From Minisyncoccota bacterium (GTDB taxonomy: Bacteria; Patescibacteriota; Minisyncoccia; Phycocordibacterales; JAGLPS01), in NCBI GenBank assembly GCA_023137185.1, contig JAGLPS010000004.1, positions 1-32,288 on the forward strand: a stretch of 32,288 nucleotides of DNA, in the 5' to 3' direction. Positions 11,635-18,179 of this stretch are shown in pieces. The notes below the pieces were generated by a model that did no database searches, was not told the origin of the DNA, and saw only the letters and a list, made by a program, of their open reading frames with translations. Positions within the stretch are counted from its first letter, which is position 1; each line of letters starts with the position of its first letter. Both the position numbers and the translations under genes were made by a program.

Positions 11635-13110
11635 ATGAGATTTTTCTCTTTTTTTACACCTTCACCAGATGCTGCGTCTCGAAAAGAGATTTTTCTTTTT
11701 AATACGCTAACGGGAAAAAAAGAACAATTTGTCCCACTTAAAAATGGAAAAGTAAAAATGTACCATTGTGGTCCAACCGTGTACCAGCACGCCCATATTG
11801 GGAATCTCCGTTCGTATCTATTCGCCGATACTCTTAAGCGATTATTTCTGTCTCATCAATACAAAGTGCGTCAAGTAATCAACATTACCGATGTCGGACA
11901 CCTTACGGGAGATGAAGACGAAGGTGAAGACAAAATTGAAAAAGAAGCGCGAAAGAGAAAAAAAACAGCGCGTGAAATCACTAAATTTTACACAGACGCT
12001 TTTTTTAATGACATTAAAAAATTAGGTATTAACACCTCTAATACTTTTTTCCCTCGCGCAACCGATTATATACGCGAGCAAATTGCGCTTGTCGAAAAAC
12101 TTGAGAAAAAAGGATACACCTATAAAATTTCCGACGGTGTTTATTTTGATACATCGAAATTTCTCGAATACGGGAAACTCGGCTCTATCGATGTAAACTC
12201 GCTCAAAGAAGGTGCGCGCGTCGCCGCAAACAATGAAAAAAGAAACCCCTCGGATTTCGCTCTTTGGAAATTTTCTCCTCAGAAAAACTCAGGACAAGCC
12301 GTCCGAGAGCAAGAATGGAATTCACCTTGGGGAAAAGGATTCCCTGGTTGGCATCTTGAGTGCTCCGCGATAAGCCAAAAACTTTTAGGAGAGACATTTG
12401 ATATTCATACGGGAGGCACTGACCATATCCCAGTGCACCACAACAATGAAATTGCCCAATCGGAAGGCGTAACAGGAAAGCCTCTTTCTCGATACTGGAT
12501 GCACAATGCGTTTGTCACCGTAGCAAATGAGAAAATGGCAAAGTCTTTGGGAAATTTTTATACTCTCGCTGACTTAGAGAAAAAAGGAATCAGGGCGCTT
12601 TCATATCGTTACTGGCTTTTAACCGCTCACTACCGCTCCCCTGTCTCCTTCACTTGGGAAGCTGTTGAAGGAGCACAAACCGCGTTAAAAAGGCTCTCTT
12701 TGCATATCAAGGAATTAGAGGAAGAAAAAATAGGTTCCGTAATTTCTATCTATAAAGAAAAGTTCGATTCTGCAGTAACAGACGATCTTAATACTCCGGA
12801 AGCCATCGCTTTTCTGTGGGAACTTGTAAAAGATGAAAAAATATCGCCTCAAGACAAAAAAGCGACTCTCCTATATTTTGATACGATGCTTGGGCTTTCT
12901 TTTTCAACACTGCCTTCCCTATTTGAACATACGAAAAACATCCCCGAAGAAGTGCAAAAACTGGTTGAGGAACGCGAAACAGCGCGCAAGGAAAAAGATT
13001 GGGAGAAAGCCGACAGTCTACGCAAAGAAATCGCTCAAAAAGGATTTGTTGTTGAAGACAGCGAGAATGGTCCTGTGATAAAACCAATTATCGAGGTTCA
13101 ACCTCGATAA
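11635..13110 (+). CDS. cysS: Cysteinyl-tRNA synthetase
   Basis: MYHCGPTVYQHAHIGNLRSYLFADTLKR, GWHLECSAIS, GGTDHIPVHHNNEIAQSE, KMAKSLGN. Confidence 0.97.
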   Translation: MRFFSFFTPSPDAASRKEIFLFNTLTGKKEQFVPLKNGKVKMYHCGPTVYQHAHIGNLRSYLFADTLKRLFLSHQYKVRQVINITDVGHLTGDEDEGEDKIEKEARKRKKTAREITKFYTDAFFNDIKKLGINTSNTFFPRATDYIREQIALVEKLEKKGYTYKISDGVYFDTSKFLEYGKLGSIDVNSLKEGARVAANNEKRNPSDFALWKFSPQKNSGQAVREQEWNSPWGKGFPGWHLECSAISQKLLGETFDIHTGGTDHIPVHHNNEIAQSEGVTGKPLSRYWMHNAFVTVANEKMAKSLGNFYTLADLEKKGIRALSYRYWLLTAHYRSPVSFTWEAVEGAQTALKRLSLHIKELEEEKIGSVISIYKEKFDSAVTDDLNTPEAIAFLWELVKDEKISPQDKKATLLYFDTMLGLSFSTLPSLFEHTKNIPEEVQKLVEERETARKEKDWEKADSLRKEIAQKGFVVEDSENGPVIKPIIEVQPR

Positions 13111-13174
13111 TTTTCTTGAGTTTTTGAAGAGATCTCGCGGTAAGCGCGAGGTTTTCTGGTTATAAAAAAAGCCC
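13089..13174. repeat. 86 bp direct repeat, copy 1 (includes palindrome 13089-13109)
   Basis: Near-identical to 14165-14250; I see two mismatches. Confidence 0.92.
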
Positions 13175-13192
13175 GAAAGTAAACGTCGGGCT
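13164..13192 (-). terminator. Intrinsic terminator, minus strand
   Basis: AGCCCGACGTTTACTTTCGGGCTTTTTTT on the minus strand. Confidence 0.8.
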
Positions 13193-13459
13193 AAATAAGT
13201 GACAGGGAGAAAAAGATACTGCGCACACATACCTCTTTCTCCCTGCACCCTTAAGGCTAGGAGACATTGAAAGAACCGTTTTTCTTTGTTTCTGTCCCTA
13301 AGGTTAGCTGAACTTTTGCCTGGATTTCCTAGGAATCCAAAAACTCGGTTCGGCAAAAACAGTCTATTTAACAAAGTAACATAAAACAGGTCACCTGCCA
13401 AATTAAGACGCATCGGAAAAAAAATTTCTGAATTTGGAGAAGTATGTGATAAACAAAGA

Positions 13460-13685
13460 GACCTTGAGAGAAAATTCAATTCTCTCAAGGTCAACCGCAG
13501 GCGCAGCTGCACCTGAAGTTAGGGGGTGGAAATTCCGAAAGTTCCGAAGGATTTTCCTCTTCTGGCTTTTTCTTCCTCCTCCTGATTAGGCGCTTGGCAA
13601 AAAGATAACTGTAAATACAGTTAAAAAATCGCTTTTTACTATAGCATCCAGCAAAAAGTATACTTGACTCTCCGCACTTTGTCGA
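13460..13685 (-). ncRNA. Paralogous structured ncRNA, copy A
   Basis: 5' GACAAAGTGCGGAGAGT, CUUUUUGCU/AGUAAAAAG stem, AACUGUA-UU-UACAGUU hairpin, CCAGAAGAGGAAAAUC, terminal hairpin GACCTTGAGAGAattgaattTTCTCTCAAGGTC. Homologous to 14538-14775. Confidence 0.55.
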
Positions 13686-13718
13686 TATTTAATTATCAAG
13701 TGATTATCGAGGTGGGAT

Positions 13719-13739
13719 TATCGAGGTTCAACCTCGATA
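13719..13739. repeat. TATCGAGGTT palindrome within GGGATTATC...GATAATCCC (13714-13744), half-site at 13705-13713
   Basis: TATCGAGGTTCAACCTCGATA. Confidence 0.9.
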
Positions 13740-13768
13740 ATCCCAAAAAGCTTAATTTGGCCGAACAT

Positions 13769-13960
13769 TCAGTTTGACTTGCAAATTTTTCTAAACAATT
13801 GTGACATTCGTTCTGTACCCTCTACAAACTTTTCAAACTGAAAGTTTGCCTTGTTCCTTTTTTCATTACTTCCCGAGAAGTTACAAATTTCATGAATATT
13901 CTCAAGATTTTCGCACTTCTCAATAAAAACGTTGTACTTACCTCCCTTAGTATGATCCAT
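13769..13960 (-). CDS. Small hypothetical protein
   Basis: MDHTKGGKYNVFIEKCENLENIHEICNFSG..., preceded by AAGGAGAAAAAT-ATG and upstream TATAAT boxes. Confidence 0.6.
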   Translation of the reverse strand: MDHTKGGKYNVFIEKCENLENIHEICNFSGSNEKRNKANFQFEKFVEGTERMSQLFRKICKSN

Positions 13961-14137
13961 ATTTTTCTCCTTATTTTTAAGCCAAATTATAGGACTACAA
14001 TTATAAAGTACTATCTACAAAAGCCAAACTGTCCTAATGTGCTGGCACTAAGGCTTTTAGAATTCTGCATTTAGTATAGACTATTATTTTTAATAACACC
14101 ATAATTTCAGTTTTTCGAAAAAGAATAAGTTTTCTGC

Positions 14138-14185
14138 ATCGAGGTTTTCTGTATCGAGGTTGTGTATCGAGGTTGAACCTCGATA
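14138..14185. repeat. TATCGAGGTT repeat cluster: two half-sites plus full palindrome (14165-14185)
   Basis: catcgaggttttctgtatcgaggttgtgTATCGAGGTTGAACCTCGATA. Confidence 0.9.
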
Positions 14186-14250
14186 ATTTTCTTGAGTTTT
14201 TGAAGAGATCTCGCGGTAAGCGCGAGGTTTTCTGGCTATAAAAAAAGCCC
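14165..14250. repeat. 86 bp direct repeat, copy 2
   Basis: TATCGAGGTTGAACCTCGATAATTTTCTTGAGTTTTTGAAGAGATCTCGCGGTAAGCGCGAGGTTTTCTGGCTATAAAAAAAGCCC; see 13089-13174. Confidence 0.92.
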
Positions 14251-14515
14251 TGAAAAAAGTTTAAACTTCAAACTTTTTTCAGGGCTGGCCCGCCAGGGAA
14301 ATTGTGACATCATTGAGTCGCACCGTTTAGAATTCAGGCACAATCTCGCTCGGGTTCGATAGTTCGGGAATTCACTCCTAGAAGAATTTCCCTCTTCGTT
14401 GGTGGTATCCCCGCACTTCCTTATTTAAGAGCCTAAAGAGACCGCTAGCAGAGGAAATTCGCTCTTTATGGCTTCTTACTGTACAAGATACATAATTCTC
14501 CACAGTTTGTCTATA
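14240..14515 (-). ncRNA. Paralogous structured ncRNA, copy B
   Basis: 5' GACAAACTGTGGAGA, GAAGAGGGAAAUUCUUC core hairpin, terminator AGCCCTGAAAAAAGTTTGAAGTTTAAACTTTTTTCAGGGCTTTTTTT. Confidence 0.5.
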
Positions 14516-14537
14516 AAATAGTAATCGGAACTAAAAT

Positions 14538-14775
14538 AAAAAGGCTCTGAGAAAAGGATTGAACTTTATCTCAGAGCCCCGCTCCTCAGACACAATTTCA
14601 CCGTCTGTGCCTGCGCTTGAGGTTTCGGAAATGCCAAAAGATTTCCCTCTTCTGGTTTATTTCTTTCGCCTCCTTGAAGCGCTTGTGAAAGAGTCCAGCT
14701 ATAACATAGCGGGGAAAATTGCTCTTCACTAGCGTCCAGTGAAAAGAATATCCTACTCTCCACACTTTGTCCACA
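14538..14775 (-). ncRNA. Paralogous structured ncRNA, copy C
   Basis: 5' GACAAAGTGTGGAGAGT, CUUUUCACU/AGUGAAGAG stem, GCUAU-GUU-AUAGC hairpin, CCAGAAGAGGGAAAUC, terminator GGCTCTGAGATAAAGTTCAATCCTTTTCTCAGAGCCTTTTT. Confidence 0.55.
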
Positions 14776-14851: not shown

Positions 14852-16246
14852 ATGAACGTCCCTTCCCCATTTTTCCAAGTTAAAAACAGTGTTCGTGTCC
14901 CTCCGCAAAATCTTGAAGCGGAGATGGCGCTATTGGGTTCGATTATGCTTCGTCCAGAAGCAGTATATGAAATACTTGATTTAATTACTGCCGCCGTATT
15001 CTACTCAGAAAAGAACCGGACTATTTTTGCCACAATGCTTGAGCTGTTTCAAAAAAATACTCCTATTGATATTCTTTCGGTTACGTCTCGTTTGAAAGAA
15101 AAAAACCTTCTGGAGGAAATTGGAGGTTCCAGTTACCTTTCAGAACTTACAGGAGCGGTTCCCTCTTCGGCTCACATCAATCATTACGCTAACATTGTTC
15201 GCAAGAAATATATGATGCGAAAACTTATCGAAGCGTCTGAGCACATTTCCGTACTTGGCTATGACGAAGTGAAAGAACTTGATGAAGTTATGGATATGGC
15301 GGAAAAGAAAATCTTTGAAATCACCAATATTGGAAGTGTTCATCGCTTTATCGAAATCAAAGACGCCTTAGGCGAGGCTTGGGAGAGACTGGACAAACTG
15401 CATCACTCAGGTGAAAAAATTCGCGGTATTCCAACAGGTTTTGCCGAGCTTGATAACAAACTTTCAGGGCTTCAGCCTTCTGACCTTATTATTCTCGCGG
15501 CGCGACCTTCAATGGGAAAAACTTCTCTCGCGTTGGATATCGCCCGTCAAGCAGCGGTGTCGCACAACGTTCCTGTCGGAATTTTTTCTCTTGAAATGAG
15601 CTCACAACAGCTTGTAGACAGAATGCTTGCCGCCGAGTCTCGCGTTGACTCGTGGAAACTCCGCACCGGACAGCTTTCAGTTGAAAAAGACTTTAATAAA
15701 ATTCGCGATTCGCTTGGCGTGCTCTCAAAAGCTCCGATATTCATAGACGATCAGCCCGGAAACAATATTCTTAAAATGCGTTCCATTGCCCGCCGTCTTA
15801 AGAGCGAGAAGAAACTAGGTCTTATCGTAGTAGACTACCTCCAGCTTATGGTTCCCACACAAAGCAGAGGCAATGATTCTCTTGTTCAACAGGTTACAGA
15901 AATTTCCCGCTCCCTCAAACACCTTGCCCGCGAACTTGATATACCCGTCCTTGCCCTCTCTCAGCTTTCTCGCGCAGTTGAACAACGCGGAGGACGCCCG
16001 AGACTCTCTGACCTTCGCGATTCTGGTTCTATCGAGCAAGACGCTGATGTTGTAATGTTTATTCATCGTGATGACAGACAAAACGAGAACAGTGAGCGCC
16101 CAAATATCGCCGAAATAATGATTGAGAAACACCGCAACGGGCCAACAGGAAAAGTGGAGTTATATTTTGATGACAAGAAAACAACATTCTTAAGTCTCGA
16201 CAAAAGCGGCTCAAATGGAAGCGAGCAGGAATTTGAAAAATTTTAA
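14852..16246 (+). CDS. dnaB: Replicative DNA helicase
   Basis: PPQNLEAEMALLGSIM, AARPSMGKTSLALDIA, GLIVVDYLQLM, LSQLSRAVEQRGGRPRLSDLRDSGSIEQDADVVMFIHR. Confidence 0.97.
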   Translation: MNVPSPFFQVKNSVRVPPQNLEAEMALLGSIMLRPEAVYEILDLITAAVFYSEKNRTIFATMLELFQKNTPIDILSVTSRLKEKNLLEEIGGSSYLSELTGAVPSSAHINHYANIVRKKYMMRKLIEASEHISVLGYDEVKELDEVMDMAEKKIFEITNIGSVHRFIEIKDALGEAWERLDKLHHSGEKIRGIPTGFAELDNKLSGLQPSDLIILAARPSMGKTSLALDIARQAAVSHNVPVGIFSLEMSSQQLVDRMLAAESRVDSWKLRTGQLSVEKDFNKIRDSLGVLSKAPIFIDDQPGNNILKMRSIARRLKSEKKLGLIVVDYLQLMVPTQSRGNDSLVQQVTEISRSLKHLARELDIPVLALSQLSRAVEQRGGRPRLSDLRDSGSIEQDADVVMFIHRDDRQNENSERPNIAEIMIEKHRNGPTGKVELYFDDKKTTFLSLDKSGSNGSEQEFEKF

Positions 16247-18052: not shown

Positions 18053-18179
18053 AATAATTGTTTCATTTTACATAAAATTTTTGATATTGCAAACAGATAA
18101 AAAACCTTTGACAACATCCCCCTTTTAAGATTTAATGTGCTAAGAAACTGAACTTTTTAAAATAGGAGATAAGGAGGTT

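Follow-up and report, generated by a model that had tools for sequence, protein, structure and literature searches.

The minus strand of the 1.74-kb gap between cysS (11635-13110, plus strand) and dnaB almost certainly holds three related, so far unnamed small-RNA genes in a row beside dnaB, here called copies C, B and A. The gap lies in a window, the whole stretch of DNA that was analysed, of 32,288 nt from a Minisyncoccota bacterium (contig JAGLPS010000004.1), whose genome size and gene content point to the Candidate Phyla Radiation (CPR). On balance we consider it probable that the three are tandem paralogous, stand-alone genes for trans-acting sRNAs which have been triplicated and may be under the control of DnaA.

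Promoters, structure and covariation of the three units

The initial annotation had described three minus-strand units that share GACAAASTGYGGAGA at their 5' end, a core and an intrinsic terminator. The units were found in place and the core GAAGAGGRAAAU is common to all three, but GACAAASTGYGGAGA (13669-13683, 14497-14511 and 14757-14771 in copies A, B and C; no other site in the 26 contigs of the 699-kb genome, up to one mismatch allowed) appears to be DNA rather than RNA, namely the -35 and spacer of a sigma-70-type promoter outside the transcript. A promoter scan found a -35 and a -10 hexamer 17 nt apart in all three copies (Table 1), and similarity among the copies begins at the -35, as expected of a promoter. 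With the RNA start set 36 nt past the first base of the -35, the predicted starts are the upper coordinates of the three sRNAs in Table 1. Each unit has by sequence match its own promoter, as a bacterial trans-acting sRNA gene should, and ends in its own intrinsic terminator; those of A and B were flagged by a terminator scan, and that of C is seen in the fold as a strong stem followed by U's. The predicted structured RNA measures 200-240 nt per unit, and the order of elements is promoter, 5' two-part stem, AGGAGG linker, hairpin with a GGRAAA loop, variable 3' part and terminator.

Table 1. Positions of the predicted small-RNA genes, their parts and dnaB in the window.
Feature	Position	Strand	Remarks
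dnaB	14852..16246	+	divergent from copy C; DnaA-box-like site common to both
Promoter of copy C	14745..14773	-	-35 TGGACA, 17-nt spacer, -10 TATTCT
Promoter of copy B	14485..14513	-	TAGACA, 17 nt, TATCTT; second box TGTGGAGAA
Promoter of copy A	13657..13685	-	TCGACA, 17 nt, TATACT; boxes degenerate (10/16)
sRNA C	14535..14737	-	predicted start to terminator end; from promoter spacing and covariation
C 5' domain P1	14676..14737	-	P1a GGACGCU/AGCGCU, P1b GUGAAGAG/CUCUUUCAC, P1c GCUAU/AUAGC
C AGGAGG in purine-rich linker	14669..14674	-	no start codon after AGGAGG
C P2/P2b hairpin, GGGAAA loop	14628..14663	-	conserved core CCAGAAGAGGGAAAU
C P3 hairpin CAGGCACA/UGUGUCUG	14587..14613	-	counterpart in A CAGGUGCA/UGCGCCUG
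C intrinsic terminator	14535..14578	-	three both-side changes versus A
sRNA B	14239..14477	-	P1 14424-14477, P2 14365-14413, terminator 14239-14286
sRNA A	13454..13649	-	P1 13588-13649, AGGAGG 13578-13583, P2 13537-13572, P3 13498-13515, terminator 13454-13492

Pairwise alignment bore out the earlier observation that A and C correspond over nearly their whole length. A covariance model trained on these two copies only finds B (E=2.6e-10 with the promoter, E=1.9e-6 without it), which identifies B as a true third copy, and the descent of all three from one ancestor is strongly supported. Gaps of 2, 1, 2 and 1 nt separate A from C and exclude a conserved reading frame; a coding reading of C (65-aa ORF at 14566-14763 with a GTG start) was rejected since the A/C indels break the frames and a common start codon is absent. 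The AGGAGG-containing segment reported for A and C is indeed present in both and is not followed by a start codon, and B has AGGAAG. These gaps, the finding of B by the A and C model and the covariation across the three copies describe a conserved, non-coding RNA structure.

From the predicted start, A and C fold into P1a (GGAYGCU/AGCGCY), P1b (GUGAAGAG/CUCUUUCAC or GUAAAAAG/CUUUUUGC), the apical hairpin P1c, the AGGAGG linker, P2/P2b, P3 and the terminator, while B has AGAAGCC/GGCUCU and UAAAGAG/CUCUUUA at the position of P1 and an equivalent P2 hairpin. Between A and C, the hand-written helices including the terminator hold 11 both-side and seven one-side changes that preserve pairing and no broken pair; five of the 11 both-side changes lie in P1c, the register of which is loose. 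In the alignment of the three copies, which comprises three sequences only and was itself adjusted to the structure taken from A and C, 95.6% of the helix cells pair and seven of the 24 pairs are changed on both sides. Shifting the partners by one to three columns as a control brought pairing down to 40-62% and both-side changes to 0-1. Several helix pairs are G-U in the minus-strand sense and would be A-C on the other strand, which favors transcription of the minus strand.

The first covarying stem of the initial annotation, 9 bp formed by CUUUUCACU and AGUGAAGAG, had been assigned to the wrong partner. It shows one both-side change in three copies, a result matched by 238 of 500 shuffles, and its CUUUUCACU arm sits between the -10 and the predicted RNA start and so ahead of the predicted RNA; it looked convincing because in A and C the upstream arm is nearly repeated by the downstream one. 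In the supported helix, AGUGAAGAG pairs with the downstream CUC(U)UUCAC and runs on into GGAYGCU/AGCGCY, with covariation in all three copies. The adjoining hairpin (GCUAU-GUU-AUAGC in C, AACUGUA-UU-UACAGUU in A) is present in both as P1c, but with its loose register, and the equivalent in B is weak at best.

Full-length folding z-scores of the three units are -4.5, -3.8 and -4.2 with promoter and terminator sequence included, and for the part between predicted start and terminator the values are -2.3 for C, -0.5 for B and -2.1 for A; without the terminator the plus strand folds about equally well, with similar z. Since much of the full-length score comes from terminator and promoter, the case for the RNAs rests on covariation and anatomy. 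The folding energy of B without its terminator is unremarkable and counts against the preferred explanation.

Additional features were observed in and around the gap. Unit D (13163-13399, minus strand) has a promoter-like start and a strong terminator and might be a fourth, unrelated RNA gene; it shows no folding signal once the terminator is removed and is not matched by the family model. The palindrome ATTATCGAGGTTSAACCTCGATAAT, found at 13087-13111, 13717-13741 and 14163-14187 among other positions, belongs to a dispersed repeat that is present at some 30-40 places in the genome. An 86-nt segment recurs with 98% identity at 13089-13174 and 14165-14250, in each case downstream of a terminator, that of D or of B, and is apparently a recent duplication.

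A DnaA-box-like pair at dnaB, dnaA and the promoters

The GACAAASTGYGGAGA motif coincides with a pair of DnaA-box-like 9-mers phased by 11 nt. The promoter of copy C overlaps the pair TGTGGACAA-AG-TGTGGAGAG at 14756-14775, which reads TGTGGACAAAGTGTGGAGAG in the window. Most of the 23 relatives of the order that were examined have a pair of the form TGTGNNTAA-NN-TGTGGATAA (11-nt period, minus orientation) upstream of dnaB (14756-14775 in the window and loci L038-L058), usually 28-77 nt before the start, and it stands above composition-matched shuffles, a score that is somewhat flattered as the consensus was drawn from the same loci. Within the gap of the window, C alone is equalled by five of 60 percent-level shuffles (fraction 0.05). 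Independent support comes from the recurrence of the pair at dnaA: only nine pairs at that score exist in the whole genome and three of them flank dnaA, where the sense strand reads TTGTTCACA-TC-ATATTCACA-TT-TTATTAACA (contig C17, about 18109-18140), and in the complete relative G003 such pairs are present at both ends of dnaA. By sequence and position the pairs are best described as DnaA-box-like, and they suggest that DnaA may control dnaB in this order.

Scored against the order-wide pair, C reaches 13/16, B 12/16 (imperfect) and A 10/16 (degenerate), so the link to DnaA weakens away from dnaB and control of copy A by DnaA is doubtful. DnaA, or a protein that uses the same site, could plausibly control copy C, and B and A more weakly, together with dnaB; the phased boxes overlap the -35 and spacer, and bound DnaA would shut the sRNA promoter. 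In the most far-reaching version, a tentative possibility in which we place little confidence, DnaA boxes common to dnaB overlap the promoters of a lineage-restricted sRNA family in a CPR-type bacterium with a reduced genome, so that the initiation factor would directly switch a post-transcriptional regulator. The locus was also considered as oriC; this was ruled out in G003, where the GC-skew minimum lies around 70-100 kb, dnaA at about 51-52 kb and dnaB at 456 kb near the GC-skew maximum.

The conservation of the pair raises an alternative in which the feature is mainly DNA, that is, control sites for DnaA at dnaB that were duplicated with their flanks, the transcribed bodies being incidental by-products. 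The 5' motif is in fact the most conserved segment of the units, is an order-wide element upstream of dnaB and resembles the phased boxes at dnaA, but compensatory changes extend through the RNA helices and terminators to the end of the units, and the GAAGAGGRAAAU loop is kept between B and A/C. We therefore regard this explanation as unlikely.

Possible function of the RNAs

Trans-acting sRNAs are the simplest reading because the units have no downstream gene, no conserved frame, and promoters and terminators of their own; like the initial annotation, we infer that they may be multicopy regulators. Binding to mRNAs or to a protein would then be the task of the GAAGAGGRAAAU loop, which is conserved, and/or of the AGGAGG linker, which is purine-rich and unpaired, and the triplication might serve dosage or slightly different targets. 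When loops and linkers were paired with 623 crudely defined translation start regions, the duplex energies showed no excess over coding interiors, in what is a weak test since the start regions are AT-richer. One perfect complement of 12-13 nt to the loop of B and C, located upstream of an ORF on contig C9, may be due to chance.

RNAs of the CsrB/RsmZ type, paralogues that offer GGA in loops and linkers and titrate an RNA-binding protein, would match the multiple copies, the GGA in the P2 loop region and the AGGAGG linker, but CsrA was not found in this 100%-complete genome by a search that, as a control, finds it in three reference genomes, and GGA motifs are few per RNA; such a role seems improbable to us. 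We give still less credence to cis-acting leaders or riboswitch-like attenuators. Structured RNAs that end in terminators and an AGGAGG similar to a ribosome-binding site would suit them, but none of the units is positioned in the 5' leader of a gene: A and C are not followed by a gene, and the only ORF directly 3' on the minus strand, which encodes 63 aa and lies beyond B, is preceded by a separate promoter-like site, over 200 nt past the B terminator. This ORF (13769-13960, minus strand) carries a promoter-like TTGGCT-16-TATAAT and AAGGAG ahead of its ATG, and has no Pfam match.

The units are unnamed in Rfam: no family reaches its gathering score at the locus, and a permissive search gave none close to that threshold; an Rfam scan of the window returned one tRNA only. 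The initial annotation had recognised no features of tmRNA, RNase P, 6S or SRP RNA at the locus, and this held for tmRNA, RNase P and 6S RNA. tmRNA (RF00023) lies on contig C12, the best match to RNase P RNA (RF00010) is on contig C26 (1714-1937, minus strand; 39.8 bits, E=1.5e-11, under the gathering score), the 6S RNA model (RF00013) has no match at the locus, and neither 6S nor SRP RNA was found in this genome at gathering score. That the units are diverged copies of one of these housekeeping RNAs can be dismissed as most improbable, for although Rfam finds neither 6S nor SRP RNA at that score and the core of A, GAGGAAAAUCC, resembles what we take to be the P4 strand of RNase P RNA, GAGGAAAGUCC, tmRNA and an RNase P-like RNA are encoded elsewhere, Rfam support at the locus is nil, there are three copies and other signature motifs are missing. 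Separately, a partial 16S rRNA was observed at the end of contig C2 (locus L074, 10691-11624), where it adjoins a match to domains D1-D4 of a group II intron.

Distribution and comparison with known systems

Searches by DNA sequence, by pattern and by model, more strictly filtered where the sets were large, gave no further family member in 297 genomes of the order and 381 of the phylum. None was found either in 85,462 species genomes, searched with the exact promoter pattern only, or in phages, plasmids and viral contigs. The promoter pattern has exact matches in eight unrelated species and in one viral contig, all without the RNA body, and weak order-level model matches (L032-L034) lie inside coding genes or at gene edges and score as chance. 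The proposed new class of sRNA holds only as a lineage-restricted family, since it was not seen in the other CPR-type genomes searched, save for one tentative shorter relative. This is in G001, the sole available relative of the same taxonomic family, in which cysS and dnaB keep their order with a gap of 232 nt whose minus strand has TTGACC-16-TAGAGT as a promoter-like site, the hairpin GACUGAAGA-GGGA-UCUUUAGUC and a terminator. In the 699-kb genome that carries copies A to C, GAAGAGGRA has 38 sites over both strands, which corresponds to a chance expectation of about 0.6% for 232 nt on a single strand, lower still if a long hairpin is required. The G001 candidate is single-copy and is not recognised by the family model; that it is a shorter relative of the family is probable but unproven.

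If the preferred reading as trans-acting sRNAs is true, the presence of three covarying sRNA copies in a genome of 0.7 Mb would mean that streamlined cells still invest in RNA genes, and the overlap of its promoter with an order-wide DnaA-box-like element at dnaB would offer a testable link from chromosome replication to RNA regulation. Irrespective of this, the element at dnaB and dnaA is of use for annotation. A limited literature search found no sRNA family described for bacteria of the Candidate Phyla Radiation, and we know of no sRNA family described with a promoter overlapped by DnaA-box-like sites.

Qrr of Vibrio and the csRNAs of Streptococcus are multicopy trans-acting sRNAs of bacteria. 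As predicted from sequence, the cysS-dnaB units share with them a stand-alone promoter, a structured body with a conserved loop, an intrinsic terminator and several near-identical paralogues, but differ in having no sequence relation in Rfam, in being confined to one CPR-like lineage and in a promoter that overlaps DnaA-box-like sites. With CsrB/CsrC and RsmX/Y/Z they have in common paralogous RNAs with GGA in single-stranded segments, whereas the host genome lacks CsrA and the GGA motifs are few. DnaA-regulated promoters, as in the autoregulation of dnaA, likewise have phased DnaA-box-like 9-mers beside the promoter, here also upstream of dnaA and dnaB, but in our case the boxes overlap a small-RNA promoter. 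The units would seem to represent a common type of gene at an uncommon site, a triplicated sRNA family whose predicted promoter coincides with a conserved, putative replication-control element.
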